Shown: piece after piece, positions 1,683-11,271 of the stretch
Layout: every line of letters starts with the position of its first letter
Position numbering within the stretch: position 1 is the stretch's first letter
DNA from: Spinacia oleracea
Taxonomy: Eukaryota > Streptophyta > Magnoliopsida > Caryophyllales > Amaranthaceae
Assembly (NCBI RefSeq): GCF_020520425.1
Contig: NC_079491.1
Location: 1,116,001 to 1,180,000, forward strand
Length of the DNA stretch: 64,000 bases
Direction: 5' to 3'
The notes under the pieces: model-generated
Database searches by the model: none
What the model was told of the DNA's origin: nothing
The model's input: only the letters and a program-made list of their open reading frames with translations
Position numbers and translations under genes: made by a program

Positions 1683-1716
1683 CTAGTTGTTCGATCGTGC
1701 GCTAGCGCACACGATC
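1683..1716 (-). repeat. Helitron 3' terminus: hairpin plus CTAG
   Basis: The minus strand reads a near-perfect palindrome centred on GTGCGCTAGCGCAC, a ten-base spacer ending CAA, then CTAG^T. The arrangement and spacing match Helitron 3' ends. A second, independent Helitron in this window (50248-50513) has the same architecture with a different hairpin, which supports the reading. Confidence 0.75.
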
Positions 1717-2447
1717 CCCCAAGGTATATAAACTTATGTTTGTAAAAATATAACTTAAAAGCTACGAACTTACAATTTGTGGTAAATGCTACTTCGTAGA
1801 ACTGATATGCTAAAGTTAGATGTTGGATTTGTGTATAACAGAAAATACGAAACCATAAATATATTCACGATGTATGTGTTTTACATTGATAGTTCGAAGG
1901 TACAATATAAGGGAAATTATATGAACAAAATGCATTTTGTATCACAAATTTAGAATGACTCGAAATTGATACGGAGTATTAAGTTGTGATATTCTCGGTC
2001 ATCATATCCGCTTCCTCATCAACCTTATATTCTAAGGTTCAGTCCTCGAAATCCTTCATTTTTGCAAGTACTCTTGTATCTTAATTTGTCACTTCTTCCT
2101 CTGCAAAAAAAAATATTGGAGTCACTATTCGATTTTTTCCTCAAGGGACTTGGTGGTCTAAATTTTGAGGTTTGTATCCTTCTTTTAAAGTATGTCCCTC
2201 AAAATATTCATGATTAGCATAATAAATGTGGAGTTTAAATATTTCCAATCACAGAAAATCGAGATTTCTTCTGGCCTTGGTACATATATTACCACATCAA
2301 TACCTCAAGGCCATAAAGAACGAGACAAAAAGATTGGAACTAATTAGACAATAAAAGTTTATGATGCAACTAATTATTTCTGAAATTCGGATTTTGTACA
2401 AGGATTGTCAAAATATTACGATATCCAACAACATGAACTCAACATAC

Positions 2448-2548
2448 CAGGTACAGTTTGCTACACTCTGAGCAATGTTGTAAAAGATTTATGGCCTTCT
2501 CAAGTGCTACATGCAGAGAACATAATGCGTGGATGCGTGGAGGTGTTG
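2448..2548 (-). pseudogene. Captured exon fragment of a U-box E3 ligase (PUB45/PUB6-like)
   Basis: The minus strand encodes HALCSLHVALEKAINLLQ followed by HCSECSKLYL, which closely resembles the N-terminal region of plant U-box/ARM-repeat proteins of the PUB45/PUB6 group. It is flanked by a plausible acceptor (CTAG before 2548) and donor (CTG|GTATGTTG at 2448/2447). Only this one exon is recognisable; the U-box and ARM repeats are absent, so no functional ligase can come from it. It lies at the 3' side of the proposed Helitron. Confidence 0.65.
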
Positions 2549-2822
2549 CTAGAAAGATATTCAACACTCTACAATACACGAAGTATATCGGAAAAGAGCT
2601 TGCACATTCCTCCATGTAACTGCAAAAGAAACAAAGCTTGTTAAACAAAAGCCACCAACATTTCATCATACCAGACATCTTGCATGGTATCAACAAAACA
2701 AGTGCCCCGCCTCTAACTGCATGAAACTTGAAATAATTTAACTTTCTTAAAACCAAATCTGTACTCGTTTTCATAGATTCACTGTATCGAGAAAAAGTGA
2801 CTATATCTCCCTATTGTTCATT

Positions 2823-2931
2823 ACTGTCACTGACATAATCTCCAACCCATAATCCTTATCATTTGATTTCTGCATCGGTATAAGACGGTAGGCTTCATCC
2901 ACAAAAAGAATCCCCCTTCAGCTTCTTTGAT
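2823..2931 (-). pseudogene. Captured CbxX-type AAA ATPase fragment, Walker B exon, frameshifted
   Basis: After an acceptor (GGGCAG| at 2932) the minus strand gives IKEAEGG and then, one base out of frame, FVDEAYRLIPMQKS and DKDYGLE. This matches the Walker B region of plant ankyrin/AAA proteins of the CbxX/CfqX class (At3g24530-like). One G is missing from the run encoding the GG before the Walker B strand, and the segment after DKDYGLE is shortened. It is a dead fragment, colinear with the piece at 3053-3190. Confidence 0.75.
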
Positions 2932-3052
2932 CTGCCCAAAATCTGCAAACAAATTTGTTTACAGCTAAGTTAGTTAAAAGCAATATTATCACAGTTTCAA
3001 ACTTGAGTAGTTAGGTAGGGGTAGAAAGGAGATAAAAGGATAAGAACAATAC

Positions 3053-3190
3053 CGCTCTCCTAGTCTTCAGCCCAGTGTGACCAACGAATTCTCCCACCAA
3101 ATCTGGTATCTGCACTTCTATCACTTTATCAGTTGGTAAAATTCCTACCATATGTAGTAATTTTCTAAGAATTCTGGCCACCATAGTTTT
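3053..3190 (-). pseudogene. Captured CbxX-type AAA ATPase fragment, post-Walker A exon
   Basis: The minus strand encodes KTMVARILRKLLHMVGILP, continuing to VGEFVGHTGLKTRR over 46 codons, with an acceptor (TTGACAG|) and a donor (GCG|GTATTG). This is the exon after the P-loop glycines in CbxX-like AAA ATPases of plants. Several normally invariant positions differ (LRK for LGK, IPD for RTD, GLK for GPK), consistent with loss of selection. No upstream ankyrin or P-loop exon was found nearby. Confidence 0.75.
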
Positions 3191-3804
3191 CTGTCAAGTA
3201 ACAAAATCAATCATTCTATTGCATATGACGAGCAATTATTTGATTGAAGACAACAAAAAAGCATTCCAGGATAATTATTTGAAACTTAAAAAAGTATAAC
3301 CATATTCTTCGCATGATAATGCATAATGCTTTACAGAAAATCTATACTTAAATTTGCACAAAAGGTTTTTCCATCATAATAATGCAAATGCCTATCCCTA
3401 TTATCTCATAACCTGTCGAAATCTGTAGACCGCATATATTGAGCAGTCAGCTAATCATCATTTAACAACTTATATCAATCAATCCAAGTTTATCAACTCT
3501 TTAAACAAACTGCACTTATCTAGATTCCCTGTCTTTTGATGTCAACAAGTTTGAGAGTATTCTGTCCAAGTTGGTAACCAACCAATCAGCTCAATTGACA
3601 TGGCTAGGCTTTGGGCTAAACTAAAGAGATTGTTATGAATGTTTAAGAAAGTGATTATGAAATAGTCCAGATGTCAAAAGGAATGCATAACCATAACATT
3701 CTCATCGTACTCACATGTTGGCTTGCTTCAGCCAAACATGAACATGCCATCTTAATCAGCAGACAGACTCGGGGTTTCGAAATGGCTACGAGGAAGGTGC
3801 CTAC

Positions 3805-3876
3805 CTTTCAAATAAGAAATGCCAGCACCAGTGATGCTGCTGAAAGAAACTTGCAGCTCCCTCAAGGTTGTAAATT
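3805..3876 (-). pseudogene. Captured leucine-rich-repeat exon (F-box/LRR14-like family), 72 bp
   Basis: A 72-base exon on the minus strand, bounded by GTTCCAG| and |GTAGGC, reads FTTLRELQVSFSSITGAG followed by ISYLK. It is one cysteine-poor leucine-rich repeat of the type found in plant LRR proteins related to At1g15740/At4g23840. The exon size equals a single 24-residue repeat, as in that family. It is the third of three colinear pieces. Confidence 0.65.
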
Positions 3877-4171
3877 CTGGAACATCAAAAAAAAGAGCAC
3901 ATCAATCTAGCTTAAACCAAAGTACAAATTGTGCAAACATTTCAATTAAAGCAACCGAGTCACGCTTTAATAGCCCTTAATAGTTAATATATACATCTTT
4001 GTTACATCGTTGACCAAAGACATGTTATGTTGGTCCATGAGAAGTGATGTACAACACTATAGATGCAGCTTTTATTAAGAATTTTTTTACAAATGTCAAT
4101 CCGAATAGTGGGACTCATGTTCAGACATGACAAGTTGATGCTAGTGAACCTAAAAATATTAAATAACTCAC

Positions 4172-4246
4172 TTGAAATTGCCTCTGTATCTGAATCTGCA
4201 ACACATTTACAATACCTAATGTTAAGAGACTTGAGCTTCTTGAGCC
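4172..4246 (-). pseudogene. Captured leucine-rich-repeat exon, 75 bp
   Basis: The minus strand reads GLKKLKSLNIRYCKCVADSD and TEAIS between an acceptor (CTTGTAG|) and a donor (TCAA|GTGAGT). It resembles the repeat following CPGIHGGLVHL in the plant LRR family named for the neighbouring fragments. Order and orientation agree with 5247-5406 upstream and 3805-3876 downstream. Confidence 0.65.
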
Positions 4247-5246
4247 CTACAAGTATATGGAAAGTAAAATCTCAGAGCCATTGTAAAAGAATAAGGAGTA
4301 GATTGTAGCTTACATCACGACGAGAAAATATTTATCAACCAAAGTAAATTATACAACTACTAGTACAGCCTAAGCTAACTGCTCTAAACATACTTTACCA
4401 TCAAGGTATACGATAATTGGCATCTACAGGTTCAAATATACACAATCTTAAACCTATGGTTGCAAAAGGTTTTTGAGTAGAAAACAAGGAGGAAGGAAAG
4501 ACTATCACAAAACATGAAGAGCAAAGCACAACTATTGACTAATTAGATCCAGTGTATAATAATCTAAAGCTGAAGTTGATCAGCTGAAGTTTTCTTCTTT
4601 ATTAAAATGGGTGGCATAATAACATATGAAAGCAACATTACTCATCATGTGTGCACAAAGCCGCAAAGTAAGAACTCTGTTCAAAGGTAAATAACATGTT
4701 TTGGATGATGACTTGATAGGCGTTACATGTCAGGAAAAAAACGTAGCGTAACTCTCACTTCCCGGGTACGAAACTCCGTATTCCATGACATAGCAGGCCA
4801 TCAAACTAACAATTCTAGTACATTATTTGTAGTGTACTCCAACAATGTTAGAAAGCATGAAGCGTGCCAAGGGGAGTGCCATCCTGTAGCCTAGGCCATT
4901 AGTTAAGTATAAGAGAAGGCACGTCAAAGCAAAGGCAAGTACCAAGCGAAGCAAGAAACACATGTCCATAATTATCTAGAATACATATGTTGTAAATAAG
5001 CCATATTATCGCTGATAATTGATGCAACATTTATACAAAATTTGATAAAGAGAGCTGGAAATTCATGAACAATCTGCAACAGTAGACTTAAATATTCCTG
5101 TGAGTCTGTGACATATTGAGGCAGCCAACGGGGGTTATGATAGAGACAAAATCTGAGCTTTGAGAGAACTTCTACACCCTAGGCTGTGATGAATCAACAT
5201 CAAGATGATTTGACTTTATGTGGAAGCAATACACCGGCAAACTAAC

Positions 5247-5406
5247 CTTCAAGATGAACAAAACTACCATGAATCCCAGAACATCTCTCAGGACCAAGAG
5301 CTCGATCAATCGACCGAATAACTTCCTCCAAACGTGCAGGTTAGGAGACTTCAAAGCTTTTCAATAAAGCCTCGTAATCCCGCATCTCCTTTCTGGCTAG
5401 CTTTGC
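5247..5406 (-). pseudogene. Captured exon: unknown coiled-coil piece joined to an LRR piece, with in-frame stop
   Basis: Between CTCCAG| and GAAG|GTTAGT the minus strand has one frame reading AKLARKEMRDYEALLKSFEV then S, a TAA stop, then PARLEEVIRSIDRALGPE and RCSGIHGSFVHLEG. The last part matches the CPGIHGGLVHL repeat of the LRR family; the first half is not recognised but is charged and helical. The stop may be a CAA-to-TAA change. The exon may itself be a fusion of two sources. Confidence 0.55.
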
Positions 5407-6229
5407 CTGGAGATCAATCAGATGTAATCATTGAGGTACTTTGTTACTCTGCGCTTGCTACAAATACACTAAACTTCTAAAGCTTACGTTTCCTACAAGT
5501 CACTAAGCTCAAGCCCCCATCAGTCTACTCAAAAGAGGACGGAGGCTACTTTCGGGTTGCAGCGTAAAAATGGAGTGATAGAGTGAAACTTATTGTAATT
5601 TAATTTCTTACTTCAATTGCACATAAACTTCAAACAAGCTTACATTTTCCAGTTTCAAAAGAGTAAAATTTCTGAAACAGTTCATAAACTCAAGGACACA
5701 GTTGAAGGTTCTGACATGTACCTCTAGGACCTTAGTCTTTCACGCGTACATCTATATTTCAGTAGTTACACGCAGTATATAGTAGTCAAATGTCACTCAT
5801 TTTTTGATACGTGAGAAAGCTTTGTATTACTATTAACAACTTCAAAAAACAATACAAGGCTTCCTGTATGAGCAGGGAAGGCAAACAGAAAAGGGTGCAC
5901 CAGCCTACCAAATAAACACCTTAATGTTATAAGCTAATAAGCTATACAATCAATCTTTGTCAATAATTAAAAAAAATCGTCTCTTAACTCTTAAAGAAAC
6001 TGAGTCATACAAGCCATTTAACAGTTTCTTGAAATCCAAACATGCTAATCTATTGTTTCATTTACCCAGAAACCACCACAAAAAGACTTGGCTGCAAGAC
6101 ATTTGATCCAGAAATAGAAAAAAGAGCCACTATAAACCTATATTCCTATTCCATTCGAATCACAGAAACTTATGTTGGAACTATAAGAATAAAGTGGCTA
6201 AAGAAGTTATGTCAAAAGCAGAAGCATAC

Positions 6230-6319
6230 CAGATGCAAATGATGAACACGAGTTAAGACCTGCAGCTCAGCCAAAAGCTCCCTTGAGGTTTGCATATCCA
6301 TCTTCTTGATTGTTGCTTT
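6230..6319 (-). pseudogene. Captured LysM receptor-like kinase exon (CERK1/LYK-like), catalytic lysine region
   Basis: The minus strand between CTTCAG| and CTG|GTATGC reads [20 protein letters not shown] then [10 protein letters not shown]. It matches the CERK1/LYK kinase segment with the VAIKK lysine and the alpha-C helix (AAIKKMDMQASREFFAELK in the family). It is a single exon of a much longer kinase domain; the remaining kinase exons are not present. Confidence 0.8.
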
Positions 6320-6860
6320 CTGAAGTTGATATATGATTCAAGAGGATGAAATTAGTCAGCAATTTAGAGCTTCCCCTTATTTTCAGACAGGTAAGTGTGC
6401 AAATAAGAAATGGCATATCATATCATTTAGCAAATGAGATAAGGCCATCCTAGTCTCCTAGAACTCACCTCTTTCTTCCCATGACATGAACTGAGCTATA
6501 ATACGTAGAAGGTGGGAGGGGAGTCATCATTCTGACATCTGACATAAAATGTCGGTACCAACTTGTTTAAGATGTTATAATGTACTAATTCAAATATTAA
6601 AACACAAAAATCACTTCATATTCCCTACAATACATTTTATTCACACTATATGCTCTATTGTTTAGGGTTCTTCGTTGTTGGACGAGTATTCAGCTCTATG
6701 GAATAGATCTGTTTCAGATTTTCAAACTATAATCTCCAAGGAAGTAGATCAGTGGAGTTCCTAAGAAGAAGTCGGGCAATGCCTTATGGTAACAGTAAAG
6801 CTATGCAAAATATGTCAGTCAGAATTATGAATTTTATTCATAGAAACTGCAGGTACAAAC

Positions 6861-7028
6861 CTCGCCTCTGTGCTATGCAAAGAAGACTTCTCCAAATCCA
6901 CCTCCACCAATCCTATAACTGCTGTTGAAAATTATTTGTCGCTTTTGCAAGCTCTTCGTAAGAGAACTCCATAGAATTGCCCATATATATACCTGAATCA
7001 CCAGCTGTATGTCCACTTTGGAAGGAAC
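6861..7028 (-). pseudogene. Captured LysM receptor-like kinase exon (CERK1/LYK-like), glycine-loop region, frameshifted
   Basis: After an acceptor (ATTGCAG| at 7029) the minus strand reads SFQSGHTAGDSG and MEFSYEELAKATNNF. It then passes through a one-base frameshift into SSYRIGGGGFGEVFFA, a stop, and HRGE before the donor |GTTTGT. This is the juxtamembrane and glycine-rich-loop exon of a LysM receptor kinase. The frameshift and stop show it is dead. It is colinear with 6230-6319, and intron relics are retained, so it came from DNA and not from a processed mRNA. Confidence 0.8.
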
Positions 7029-7294
7029 CTGCAATAGGAACCCGCATATCAATAAGAGTTGATCGCAACCCTAAAACCTTAGGTCGTGTTAATTCAAACA
7101 AAATTTACAGAAAGAGGAAAAATAAAATCGATCACAACCCTAAAAGTAGAATTGAAATCTAAACAACGAAGCATCCAACCTACATCTTTAATCTCCATTA
7201 TCACCCAATTACAAACAGAAATTAAAAAAACCCTAGAATAAACACACACACACAAAAGAATCAAATTATGAAATAAAATAAAAAAGTTATTAAC

Positions 7295-7369
7295 CTTGTA
7301 AGAGTTGCAGCGATCATATGTAGAAATAGCAGATGAACCTTCAACTGGTTTATTCCTAATGTTTTCCAT
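7295..7369 (-). CDS. First exon of an unrecognised small or chimeric gene within the Helitron
   Basis: An ATG at 7369 opens MENIRNKPVEGSSAISTYDR then CNSYK, ending at a good donor (CAAG|GTTAAT). Upstream on the minus strand (7370-7690) is a pyrimidine-rich TCTCTC leader typical of a plant 5'UTR. The sequence is not recognised. A phase-0 continuation exists: in a second frame the acceptor at 7029 gives VPSKVDIQLVIQ before |GTATAT. A transcript starting here could therefore run through captured pieces. Whether it is expressed is unknown. Confidence 0.35.
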
Positions 7370-7861
7370 TTTTTGATAAACCCGGAATTAGAAATGGCAT
7401 TAATCAAATAGAAACTGAAAATATTGAAACTTTGGAAAAAGAGGAGAGAGAGAGAGAATTGCTAAAACCGATGATGGAGAGCTGGTAGATCGGTGGCAAA
7501 TGGAGCCCTTCAAAACGAACGCCCTGGGAGATGTCCTAAAAAACAGGTCATCAAAGAAGAGAAATTAGTAGGAAAAATTAGGAGGAAAAATTGAAGAAGA
7601 GTAGTAGGAGAGGGGAGGAGAAGTACCAGCGCCATTCGAGAGGAGAGGAGAGGAGAGTAGAGAGAGGTAGCAAGAAAGTGAAACCTAACTCGGGTCCAGA
7701 AAGGCAAATAACAGGTGCGAGGAACATGCAGCAGTGTAGGAGGTCGGGGCTAAAAACGTAATCGCTCTATTGCTAAGGAAAATGACAAATTAAAAACATG
7801 AAGGATTTTGAGGTTATAACAGACATTTAACTATTGTGTGAATAGTAAGTAAAGTATGAGA

Positions 7862-8378
7862 CTTTAGAAGTGTTAGGATATGTAACCCAAAAAACATTAA
7901 CAATCAAAAGTGTGCATTGAAAACAGTAAAAGAAAAAGAAAAAAGAAAAATAAAGTGAACTACTATTTTGAAACCAGAATATTTTCATGTACCCATACGA
8001 CATGCCCACCTATTTTAGTAGGGTTTCAAACTATGTCAAGACAACTTGATTCAACCGATTTTCCTACACTTTTACACGACTGATGAACTAATGACCAGTC
8101 CATAGACCCAATTATTAAGACTATGCTAAAATCACCAACAAAAAATTCATTACCAGAACTATTAACCTAACCTAACAGAACTTTCACTGCAAAAAACTAG
8201 ATTTTCATAATTGGTGTCTCTGCTGATCGATTCACGCCTGCATCATCTTCTTCAACAAACATGTTTACATAATGACAATACTATCAATGCTTTAGAAGAC
8301 ATCTTCCTGCAGAGATTTGTTCCGAACTTCAAATTTAGTTCTGAGAGTTTAGGAAAGAGGAGCAACTCAACTGAACTT
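7862..8378. other. Spacer and RPC6 3' flank
   Basis: A/T-rich sequence between the proposed Helitron and the RPC6 stop codon. The part next to 8378 presumably holds the RPC6 3'UTR. No other gene is seen. Confidence 0.4.
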
Positions 8379-9089
8379 TCAAAATTCCAACCATTTGGTG
8401 TAGTATACACAGGTTACAGGGGAGATGATGCCATCGGGAGCGCAATGGTTAATTTGGGGACAAACACCACATGGTATCATAGAGAAAGCTCCCATTTTAG
8501 CACGTTTTGATTTGAGCTTGTAACAATCTACATTGACAGGAAACGAAGCAAATTCCCCCATTCCATTGCTCTTCACTTTACTAATCTCCTTCTCCAAAAT
8601 CAAATTGTCAAGTATTTCCTTCACCTGATCGACTGTTACTTCAACGTGAAACGCTCCATCCAAGTTATTAATCTCGTGTCGAAGTCCGTCAGCTGTAGCA
8701 ACCTTATGTCTAGAAAGTAGTTTTAAACAGACTAACTTGAGGTTATCAATTAAATCCTCATCAAGTATTCCATCTTGATACCATACACCACCAGTTAACT
8801 CTTTTGAAGGCTCAAACTCCATAGCCATAAGCCGCTTCTTCCCTTTGGCTTTAACATCAGGCACCTCTCTGATCATTTGATTCAGTTGGAGAGCCTTAAC
8901 ACAGTTATCAATTATCTTTGTGTTGTTCATGTTCAATTCTCTTCTTATGTCTCCCTTCCATATACCCATATCCCCCTTGCTTTTAATCAGATTGTATACA
9001 TTACGCTCATCGGGGTTCAACTCTTTTGAAGTATTTGATCCTGGACGTGACCGCTTGTAGCCCAAAGCCCCTTCTCCCCGTAGACTCAT
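8379..9089 (-). CDS. RPC6: DNA-directed RNA polymerase III subunit RPC6 (RPC34 homologue)
   Basis: A single-exon minus-strand CDS of 236 residues from the ATG at 9089. RPC34/RPC39 is part of the Pol III-specific trimer that contacts TFIIIB and opens promoters for tRNA and 5S rRNA genes in the nucleus. Winged-helix segments are apparent (ELNPDERNVYNLIKSKGDMG, and KLLSRHKVATADGLRHEINN in the second). The C-terminus keeps the cysteine pattern of the RPC39 4Fe-4S site: C-x2-C-x5-C-x10-C within CGVCPQINHC and ISPVTCVYYTKWLEF. The length is close to other plant RPC6 proteins, so it looks complete. A good acceptor (TTTCTGGCAG| at 9131) lies 41 bases upstream of the ATG, and a donor (CTTCTCAAG|GTTAGC at about 11271) could supply a 5'UTR exon, giving a leader intron of about 2.1 kb. 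Confidence 0.93.
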   Translation of the reverse strand: MSLRGEGALGYKRSRPGSNTSKELNPDERNVYNLIKSKGDMGIWKGDIRRELNMNNTKIIDNCVKALQLNQMIREVPDVKAKGKKRLMAMEFEPSKELTGGVWYQDGILDEDLIDNLKLVCLKLLSRHKVATADGLRHEINNLDGAFHVEVTVDQVKEILDNLILEKEISKVKSNGMGEFASFPVNVDCYKLKSKRAKMGAFSMIPCGVCPQINHCAPDGIISPVTCVYYTKWLEF

Positions 9090-9130: not shown

Positions 9131-11271
9131 CCTGCCAGAAAAAATAAAAAAACAGTGGAAATCAAACATAAATCATGAATTAAAAACTAAATGTTCAGCA
9201 AAAAGTCTTTTACTAATCCAACAAGCCAAAGATAAAGATCTTGGTTTTACTACGCAGTACTCCACTTAGAGATGGCAACGGGTACAGGACCCTACCCTGA
9301 CCCTGTCAGACCCTACCCTAAAATTAGGGTATGGGTCTTAATTTTCTAGACCTTATAGGGTAAGGGTAGGGTATGGGTATATGATGTATCGAATAGGGTA
9401 CGGTAAGGGTCCAACTTTTTCAGACCCTTACCCTACCCAGACCCTACCCATAGACCCTTAAGATCCATACCCTACCCAGACCCTAAACTAAATCCGCTCA
9501 AATTTCATTAAAGAAATATAAAAATAACACAAAATCTTAAGGCAATCCACAAAATCACATTTACTCCTCTAACAACCATCCAACACTACCATTCACTAGT
9601 CAAAAAAACCTCTAACATTGACATTGTGTACTTGAGAACCTGAGTTTTTTTTAATTCGTGACCTTAGTACATTAAATTGTAATATGTTTAAGGAAATACA
9701 AGGATGATTTGGGGCACTAGGATTTATTTGTTTTAAAATGTCAAATTAATCGTTTGTCGAAGTATTTTTTTTGTGCATTACATATGGTTGGATATAAAAA
9801 AAATTGAAAAAAGTTAAAGAAAAAATAGGCAATACGGACCCGCTCCGGACCCTAGACCCTACCCATACCCTACTGGACCCATAGAGTCCGGGTAAGGGTC
9901 TTGTAATTCTACACCCTATAGGGTAAGGGTAGGGTATGGGTATAGGTCAAAAAATTAAGGTCCGGGTCCGGATATTGCTAGACCCTACCCAGACCCTACC
10001 CATTGCCATTCCTAACTCCACTTGACAAGAAAAGTTCCCTCCATGACATAATATTGCCTATAAGTCCTAGAGGTATGGACTGGTCTGCTACTGCCAAGCC
10101 TACTTTCTTGTAATTATAAGGAATCTAGGCAACAGCTAACAACATCTTATCACCCACCAAAGGCCAAAAATATTCACTCACCCAACATCAAAGTTACCAC
10201 AATGGATATCAGTTTCATTTCTCTTATATTACAGAGTACCTCTTTATCAGCCCGTTAAAAAGGAATGATTTTTCCTTCCAATCGAGATGAATATTTTTCA
10301 TCTCCTAAAAACTTCACTCTCCCTTCCCTGCACCAACTAACAGCAGATGAATAAATATCATCCAGTCTAAACCAAAGAACAATACAACTTATACAATAGC
10401 TAACTAGTCCTGCTAATCCATGGTGGTCACCAAATAATTCTAATTGTAAGGGTAATCAGTCAAACAGCAGCAAAGGGATTAAAAAAACTGCTCTTAGTAA
10501 CTCACAATGAAGAAAAAAAATCCCCGAAAACCCTTTCATCAATTCATCTTCTCCCTTTCTCACATGTTTCCTCTCATTGAGATTATGTGTGAGTAAAGCC
10601 TGGTTTTTTCTGGCTTAATGTCAAACATACAATCTTAAACGCATCTTCACTGCCTCAGCTCAAGCTCACCACATTTTATTAGGCTCTTATATCCAGCTAC
10701 AAGCTCGGAAGCTCCGGAAATAATTTAGACAACAACTACGCTATTGGAATCATACGAAACGAATAAAACATTTTGCATGCTCATTGAACAATCTTCAAGA
10801 ATATAAACAAACACTCAAGCAAGTCGCATACAAAATCAAACCAAAAATAATCAACGAGTGAATATCTACATTTTTCTTCAAAATTCTGAAGACAGCAATC
10901 ATAATACTCCGTAGAAACAAAAAAAATGAAGTCCTCAATCTAATTAATCTGTGAATTAGAAGAACCCTAAGCGAAAAACCTAAATTAGGGGATTGCTTGA
11001 CTTGATTCACAGCACCAGCAATCAAAATTGAAAACCCTAGCTCGCAATTGTCACTCGACATTTTCCCACAGTTTCATCCCCCTATTAACATAATAATCCC
11101 CAAAATCAACAAATCAAATCTGTAATTATCAAAATATAAATCGAAGGGATCAAACAAATGCGCAAAACAACCAAATTATTCAGCAAAATACAGCATAAAA
11201 AATGAATTGAAACATCAGAAATTGCAAACCTAATTAGCCGAAAAGAGAACACAATAGAACAGCTGCTAACC
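9131..11271 (-). other. Probable 5'UTR intron of RPC6
   Basis: Inferred from a donor CAAG|GTTAGC near 11271 and an acceptor CTGGCAG| at 9131. The upstream exon (about 11272-11345) is C/T-rich like a plant leader. The intron holds the hAT element at 9267-10014; the rest is A/T-rich with no coding signal. An mRNA is needed to confirm it. Confidence 0.5.
9267..10014. mobile_element. Non-autonomous hAT element with CCCTACCC-rich subterminal repeats
   Basis: The ends are inverted copies: TAGAGATGGCAACGGGTA on the left and, on the opposite strand at the right, TAGGAATGGCAATGGGTA. They are flanked by a perfect 8-bp target duplication ACTCCACT (9259-9266 and 10015-10022), diagnostic of hAT. Both arms carry many GACCCTACCC/GGGTAGGGT units in inverted arrangement; the A/T-rich centre has no transposase frame. 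Length is 748 bp. The intact duplication and ends suggest a fairly recent insertion. Confidence 0.9.

Follow-up and report, generated by a model that had tools for sequence, protein, structure and literature searches.

A spinach locus with a very probable gene-capturing Helitron built from pieces of several unrelated genes

Results

Limits of the element

We analysed a 64-kb stretch of spinach (Spinacia oleracea) DNA (hereafter the window; 64,000 nucleotides, C5:1116001-1180000) and compared it with the whole assembly (894,210,420 bases in 242 contigs, of which C1-C6 are chromosome-sized). On the minus strand of the window lies one non-autonomous Helitron of 6,196 bp, which begins at A^TC (7878), ends at CTAG^T (1683) and contains pieces of genes for a U-box protein, an AAA ATPase (presumably of the CbxX type), a leucine-rich repeat (LRR) protein, an LRR receptor kinase and a LysM receptor kinase. 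We consider it very likely that the whole feature, from 7878 to 1683, is a non-autonomous gene-capturing Helitron, that is, a rolling-circle transposon. A preliminary description, made from the letters of the window, had proposed a canonical Helitron 3' end (hairpin plus CTAG^T) at 1683 and a single element of about 6 kb with exons of unrelated genes; both proposals were borne out, the former by the terminus, the stem and the genome-wide recurrence of this end, the latter by the measured length, a partner 5' end and the recurrence of the cargo at C5:14.42 Mb. The opposite boundary, which had been placed at 7861, lies 17 bases further, at the A^TC of 7878.

In the minus-strand view the element begins A^TCCTAACACTTCTAAAG... 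and ends ...GATCGTGTGCGCTAGCGCACGATCGAACAACTAG^T, with 7878 as its first and 1683 as its last base and with host A at 7879 and host T at 1682. The 3' hairpin has a 10-bp stem located 10 nt before the terminus, is kept in family copies and, folded as DNA, gave a z of -4.5, with none of 200 shuffles equally stable. A 27-base pattern for the 3' end and a pattern for the 5' end each matched the window once at ≤3 mismatches (shuffle expectation 0.00 for both), and no further match to either was present within the 64 kb. The ends are those of the Helitron class (5' TC and 3' CTRR, here CTAG), they are common to the fetched copies, and insertion took place between host A and host T, as observed at selected ends and at the empty site of a sibling element; inspection of the terminal sequences by eye revealed no terminal inverted repeats. 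Because the sole open reading frame (ORF) of at least 100 amino acids (aa) inside the element is 111 aa long and has no Pfam match, the element lacks the RepHel protein of autonomous members, and the copy is therefore non-autonomous, which still allows its assignment to the Helitrons.

A genome-wide family of ends

The 3' pattern had 527 matches in the genome at ≤2 mismatches (reversed-pattern control, 0) and the 5' pattern had 236 at ≤3 mismatches (control, 1); since both recur far above control, the two ends of the window element belong to one family. Pairing was carried out with 100 of the 527 3' ends, 17 further 3' ends located by BLAST, and 100 of the 236 5' ends. A same-strand 3' end lay ≤30 kb downstream of 28 of the 100 listed 5' ends (chance about 0.9% per end), and 20 of these 28 listed pairs spanned 354-408 bp, the remaining lengths being 590, 2,143, 4,826, 4,860, 6,032, 6,198, 11,876 and 21,491 bp. 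The 6,198-bp pair is the window element counted with host A and T, so that its two ends are paired with each other; the 11.9-kb pair has the same 3' end as the 6,032-bp pair and arose from local duplication; and a 4.86-kb family element lies at C3:51.47 Mb. Among the pairs listed, the commonest form of the family is thus an element of about 380 bp with little beyond two conserved ends. Because this form aligns to the window element at its two ends only (78% and 72.5%), the window element seems to derive from a small non-autonomous family and to have acquired cargo.

The host base fitted insertion between A and T at every distinct end aligned from the fetched loci, with A (plus-strand view) at 18/18 3' ends and T at 22/22 5' ends; these ends were picked by regular expression, by which diverged copies were left out and the bases in the expressions, the host base excepted, were conserved by choice. 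Five further 5' candidates stood outside the 22-end set, two of them family ends with host T (the C5:14.42 Mb copy and locus L020) and three resembling chance matches. Inside the 3' end the columns agreed at 0.89-1.00; inside the 5' end, agreement was 0.86-1.00 for the last 17 columns (0.64-0.95 deeper), and beyond the host base it was 0.33-0.94 on the T-rich 3' side and 0.27-0.77 on the 5' side. At C4:157.36 Mb, two copies of the small form are seemingly adjacent, and one flank of the first resembles the family 3' region.

Cargo and its counterparts elsewhere

The features of the element are collected in Table 1. In BLAST comparisons with 79 fetched loci, 5,394 of the 6,196 bases were matched at loci other than the nearest copy (C5:14.42 Mb), and 6,102 were matched when that copy was included. 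Matches to loci elsewhere extend across introns for the LRR, AAA and U-box pieces (C2:83.97, C2:73.44 and C1:134.82 Mb, respectively), the U-box match being the most distant. Gene capture is accordingly visible as several unrelated genes with introns kept and donor-like loci elsewhere, the LysM kinase being without an intact donor, and as cargo that moved with its ends, in the C5:14.42 Mb copy (the 3' part is missing there). Alignment to parent loci with introns, through which the preliminary description expected capture to be confirmed, thus succeeded for LRR, AAA and, at a distance, U-box, but brought no close intact LysM-kinase donor.

Table 1. Features of the Helitron in window coordinates
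Feature	Position	Strand	Remarks
Non-autonomous Helitron	1683..7878	-	5' TC at 7878, 3' CTAG at 1683; host A 7879, host T 1682 (minus-strand view)
Helitron 3' terminus	1683..1716	-	10-bp stem-loop 1693-1716, then 10 nt to CTAG
3' subterminal family sequence	1683..2024	-	First ~260 bp 76-80% to most listed copies
Segment inverted in the C2:7.36 Mb and C2:91.10 Mb elements	2022..2199		
U-box-protein fragment	2199..2753	-	Exon segment 2448-2534 and flanking non-coding DNA
AAA ATPase fragment with intron	2769..3480	-	C2:73.4376 Mb, 84% by BLAST, 89.5% without gaps
LRR receptor kinase coding-exon piece, 139 bp	3485..3623	+	91% to a 918-aa ORF, C1:128.04 Mb
Piece joined directly to 5620-5667 at C5:25.287 Mb	3627..3719		88%
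LRR-protein fragment with introns	3784..5297	-	C2:83.9747-83.9763 Mb, 87% and 90% by BLAST
Dispersed repeat pieces	5385..5556		131 bp at 92-93% in 5 fetched places, then 41 bp
LysM receptor kinase (CERK1-like) block	5620..7070	-	Exons 6227-6319 and about 6838-7029
Piece common to C5:26.534 Mb and C6:29.275 Mb	7059..7163		92% and 87-88%, respectively
5' block common to other elements	7156..7878	-	ATG exon-like stretch 7369-7295, then GT
5' terminal family sequence	7748..7878	-	~110-150 bp, 69-92% to other copies

From the 3' side, the whole 342-bp tail is 82-85% identical to C2:7.34 Mb, C2:91.10 Mb and C3:103.16 Mb. The U-box exon segment matches the donor exon at 93% over 29 aa, and positions 2288-2684 match C1:134.818 Mb, a locus that holds a U-box ORF (PF04564, E 5e-20), at 81% by BLAST and 75% in global alignment. 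Protein matches to the donor place the AAA exons at 3053-3190 and 2762-2914, the donor-like locus itself scoring weakly against the AAA model (20.2 bits; cut-off 21.2), and the LRR exons at 3803-3901 and 4173-4262, the exons of that locus matching LRR models, all below cut-off. The LRR piece had been given as 3805-5406 in the preliminary description, a range that the DNA-level match replaces. Four of the pieces had been recognised there and set in one orientation; these four (U-box, AAA, LRR and LysM kinase) do lie on the minus strand, but a fifth, the LRR receptor kinase piece, had been missed and is antisense to the others.

For the LysM kinase, protein matches cover 6925-7029 and 6227-6319, and the relative at C5:25.287 Mb has matches to LysM receptor kinases, CERK1 among them (E 8e-12 to 1e-9). 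Positions 5668-5965 and 6034-6210 match the C5:14.42 Mb copy only and were assigned to this block by position. Around the LysM-kinase relatives at C5:25.28, C4:129.73, C5:48.20 and C5:44.13 Mb we found no convincing Helitron ends, the best candidates having 8-12 mismatches. The three last-named loci carry a repeated LysM-kinase fragment (87-96% over about 2 kb) without recognisable family ends. The 5' block was compared with 10 loci (including two pairs of near-identical duplicates), where the main matches were 62-83% and 7 of the 10 extended to the 5' terminus (7879); none of these 10 could be identified as the source gene of the block with its ATG exon.

Related copies and an empty site

The nearest copy, at C5:14.42 Mb, contains the cargo of 4195-7878 with the same 5' terminus in other flanking DNA and is truncated on its 3' side at an AT-rich tract. 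It is 95% identical to the window by BLAST and 97% without gaps in two aligned stretches, at a Jukes-Cantor (JC) distance of 0.028-0.033; with a substitution rate of 7e-9 per site per year, a distance of 0.03 would be about 2 million years. Because the window and this copy are about equally far from the LRR locus (0.102 and 0.111, respectively), the LRR capture is older than their split; in the LRR part, private changes numbered 7 in the window, 15 in the copy and 74 in the LRR locus.

A sibling of 6,030 bp at C4:25923277-25929306 resembles the window only in 6635-7879 (79%) and in about 215 bp of the 3' tail (67%), and its middle holds other cargo that matches other loci, including a PHP-domain gene. 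When its flanks were joined, the resulting sequence matched C4:185.867 Mb with 95% identity over the join; that locus is an empty site at A|T with no duplication. This was the only one of the 12 joined-flank sites with a match extending well into both flanks (best 40 of 678 candidates scored; 4 of 13 small-copy loci had no end pair by regular expression and were left out). A local duplication at C4:25.93 Mb, 99.8% identical over 2,469 bp, takes in the 5' part of this sibling. Two further elements, at C2:91.10 Mb and C2:7.34-7.36 Mb, have the 3' tail and the U-box piece in common with the window, with 2022-2199 inverted; no 5' end of the C2:91.10 Mb element was found within the joined 12.4 kb.

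Several results weigh against a gene-capturing Helitron of this family. No RepHel place lay within 20 kb of a listed family end (0/150; 150 places from 154 matches, the best 150 of 353 candidates scored; 100 of 527 3' ends and 100 of 236 5' ends listed). The flanks of the window insertion matched their own locus only (best 40 of 678), so that its empty site was not found, and a second complete copy was not seen, since the C5:14.42 Mb copy has lost its 3' part to the AT-rich tract. Among the donors, no close intact LysM-kinase gene was found, the loci matching both exons (C6:135.73 and C1:120.46 Mb) reaching 52-77% in protein, and the U-box locus at C1:134.82 Mb may not be the immediate donor because its JC distance is 0.30.

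Discussion

Order of captures and alternative explanations

The element would have been moved by the enzymes of an autonomous relative, which would recognise its 5' TC end and stop at its 3' hairpin. The view that one element had joined the pieces holds insofar as a single Helitron contains them, but comparison with the related elements suggests stepwise growth, with some pieces entering within older cargo. The 5' block and the LysM-kinase piece, common to the sibling at C4:25.92 Mb, would represent the first step; the LRR and AAA pieces would have followed in the window lineage, the LRR block probably by insertion within older cargo; and the 3' part with the U-box piece is common to the two C2 elements. 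The JC distances are 0.10-0.11 for the sibling over 6635-7878, a stretch that takes in part of the LysM-kinase piece, 0.10-0.11 for the LRR and AAA loci, and 0.14 between the C2 elements and the window in the U-box part. The C5:25.287 Mb locus joins 3627-3719 directly to 5620-5667, and in the window CACAT stands at both borders of 3717-5619. We favour an internal entry of the LRR block, for which this junction is suggestive and not proof because the C5:25.287 Mb locus has deletions of its own; 3627-3719 may once have belonged to the LysM-kinase block, prior to the entry of the LRR block.

The LRR block might also have been brought in by another transposon or by double-strand-break repair, and not by Helitron enzymes. 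The five-base CACAT at the two borders and the dispersed repeat (5385-5515) inside the block fit such a carrier, but inspection by eye showed no inverted-repeat ends at 3717 and 5619, and microhomology is also predicted by filler-DNA models of Helitron capture. We judge this route somewhat unlikely. A little less probable still, we think, is that most of the cargo came from reading through the 3' end, with flanking DNA and a new 3' terminus taken up at each event. Read-through capture has been shown for the bat element Helraiser (PMC4778049), and the sibling at C4:25.92 Mb, which is the same in its 5' part and diverges towards its 3' side, has the form that this process would give. Set against this, the 3' tail and U-box piece are common to the two C2 elements at a JC distance (0.14) larger than those of the LRR (0.10) and AAA (0.11) pieces, and since the 3' side is itself shared at that larger distance, the LRR and AAA pieces seem to have entered internally; the junction without the LRR block at C5:25.287 Mb, with CACAT at both borders in the window, suggestively points the same way.

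Beyond stepwise growth, one could speculate, as a distinctly long shot, that the Helitron lineage keeps a 5' leader (the ATG exon and the kinase piece) while siblings swap their inner cargo wholesale, through insertion inside older cargo and exchange with other Helitrons. If true, each copy would be a ready-made, promoter-headed trap for new exons.

A functional chimeric gene encoded by the element and maintained by selection appears very improbable. Of the five named gene pieces, four read in the sense direction of the element, several exons retain their splice borders, and exons are closer to other loci than the remaining sequence is (LRR, 93.7 vs 89.7%; AAA, 95.5 vs 86.3%), all of which would suit a functional gene; the higher exon identity, however, is what selection on the donor alone would produce, and the sole ORF of at least 100 aa is the 111-aa frame without a Pfam match. 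Exon A of the LysM kinase contains a frameshift after NNF and a stop, and AAA exon 2 contains stops. The preliminary description had taken stops and frameshifts as a general mark of the pieces, which is right in both respects for LysM exon A and, as regards stops, for AAA exon 2; in the stretches compared, neither was found in the other five (the two LRR exons, AAA exon 1, LysM exon B and the U-box exon segment). The captured pieces are most likely unconstrained DNA.

Finally, the idea of a short element with its end at 1683, next to what is left of separate old local genes, has in its favour the 354-408 bp of 20 of the 28 listed end pairs, but it is scarcely credible given that the window holds no second end-pattern match (≤3 mismatches), that the form of about 380 bp aligns to the two termini only, that C5:14.42 Mb has the cargo of 4195-7878 up to the same 5' boundary but between different flanks, and that for the LRR, AAA and U-box pieces the similarity to other loci continues across introns.

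Comparison with known elements

Pack-MULEs end in inverted repeats and duplicate about 9 bp of target DNA on insertion. The spinach element, unlike them, has TC/CTAG ends and inserts between A and T, and its identification as a Pack-MULE was rejected on that contrast. It is like Pack-MULEs in having host gene fragments inside a transposon, as these are described (PMC13317346).

A gene-capturing Helitron in spinach belongs to a well-known kind of gene shuffling and is not new in kind. Maize offers the best-documented gene capture by Helitrons, with few capture events reported in rice and Arabidopsis (PMC2575219). Like the non-autonomous Helitrons of maize, the spinach element has gene fragments, some of them multi-exon, between conserved ends, and in maize, too, copies keep different parts of one capture (PMC2575219); possible chimeric transcripts have been described from maize Helitrons as well (PMC4528327). 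It differs from them in host and family, in having at least one piece in opposite orientation, and in that the commonest paired form of its family, among the pairs listed, is about 380 bp. With Helraiser/Helibat of bats it has in common the 5'-TC and CTAG-3' ends and captured host sequence, the palindrome of Helraiser lying 11 nt before its 3' end (PMC4778049); Helraiser, unlike the spinach element, is a reconstructed autonomous animal element with tested activity, whereas the spinach element has no RepHel.

In spinach, 1,297 Helitrons have been called by HelitronScanner (PMC6337768); the parts of that survey available to us give counts and method. A title-level search of the literature on spinach Helitrons and gene fragments found, among the titles listed, none on captured genes in spinach. 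The well-delimited case presented here, together with a sibling having the same 5' cargo but a different remainder, provides a small series for reading the order of captures, which bears on whether new pieces enter by 3' read-through or internally.

Neighbouring sequence

On one side of the element, a glyoxal-oxidase-like ORF occupies 5-1354 of the window on the minus strand (PF07250, E 1.6e-117); its likely ATG is some 350 bp downstream of the 3' end of the element, and the two share one orientation. On the other side, a 236-aa ORF at 8379-9089 (minus strand) matches the RNA polymerase III subunit Rpc34 (PF05158, E 4e-37), followed at 9280-10000 by degenerate ACCCTACCC-type repeats, in which a 17-base unit occupies 9421-9484 and the remainder was recognised by eye.

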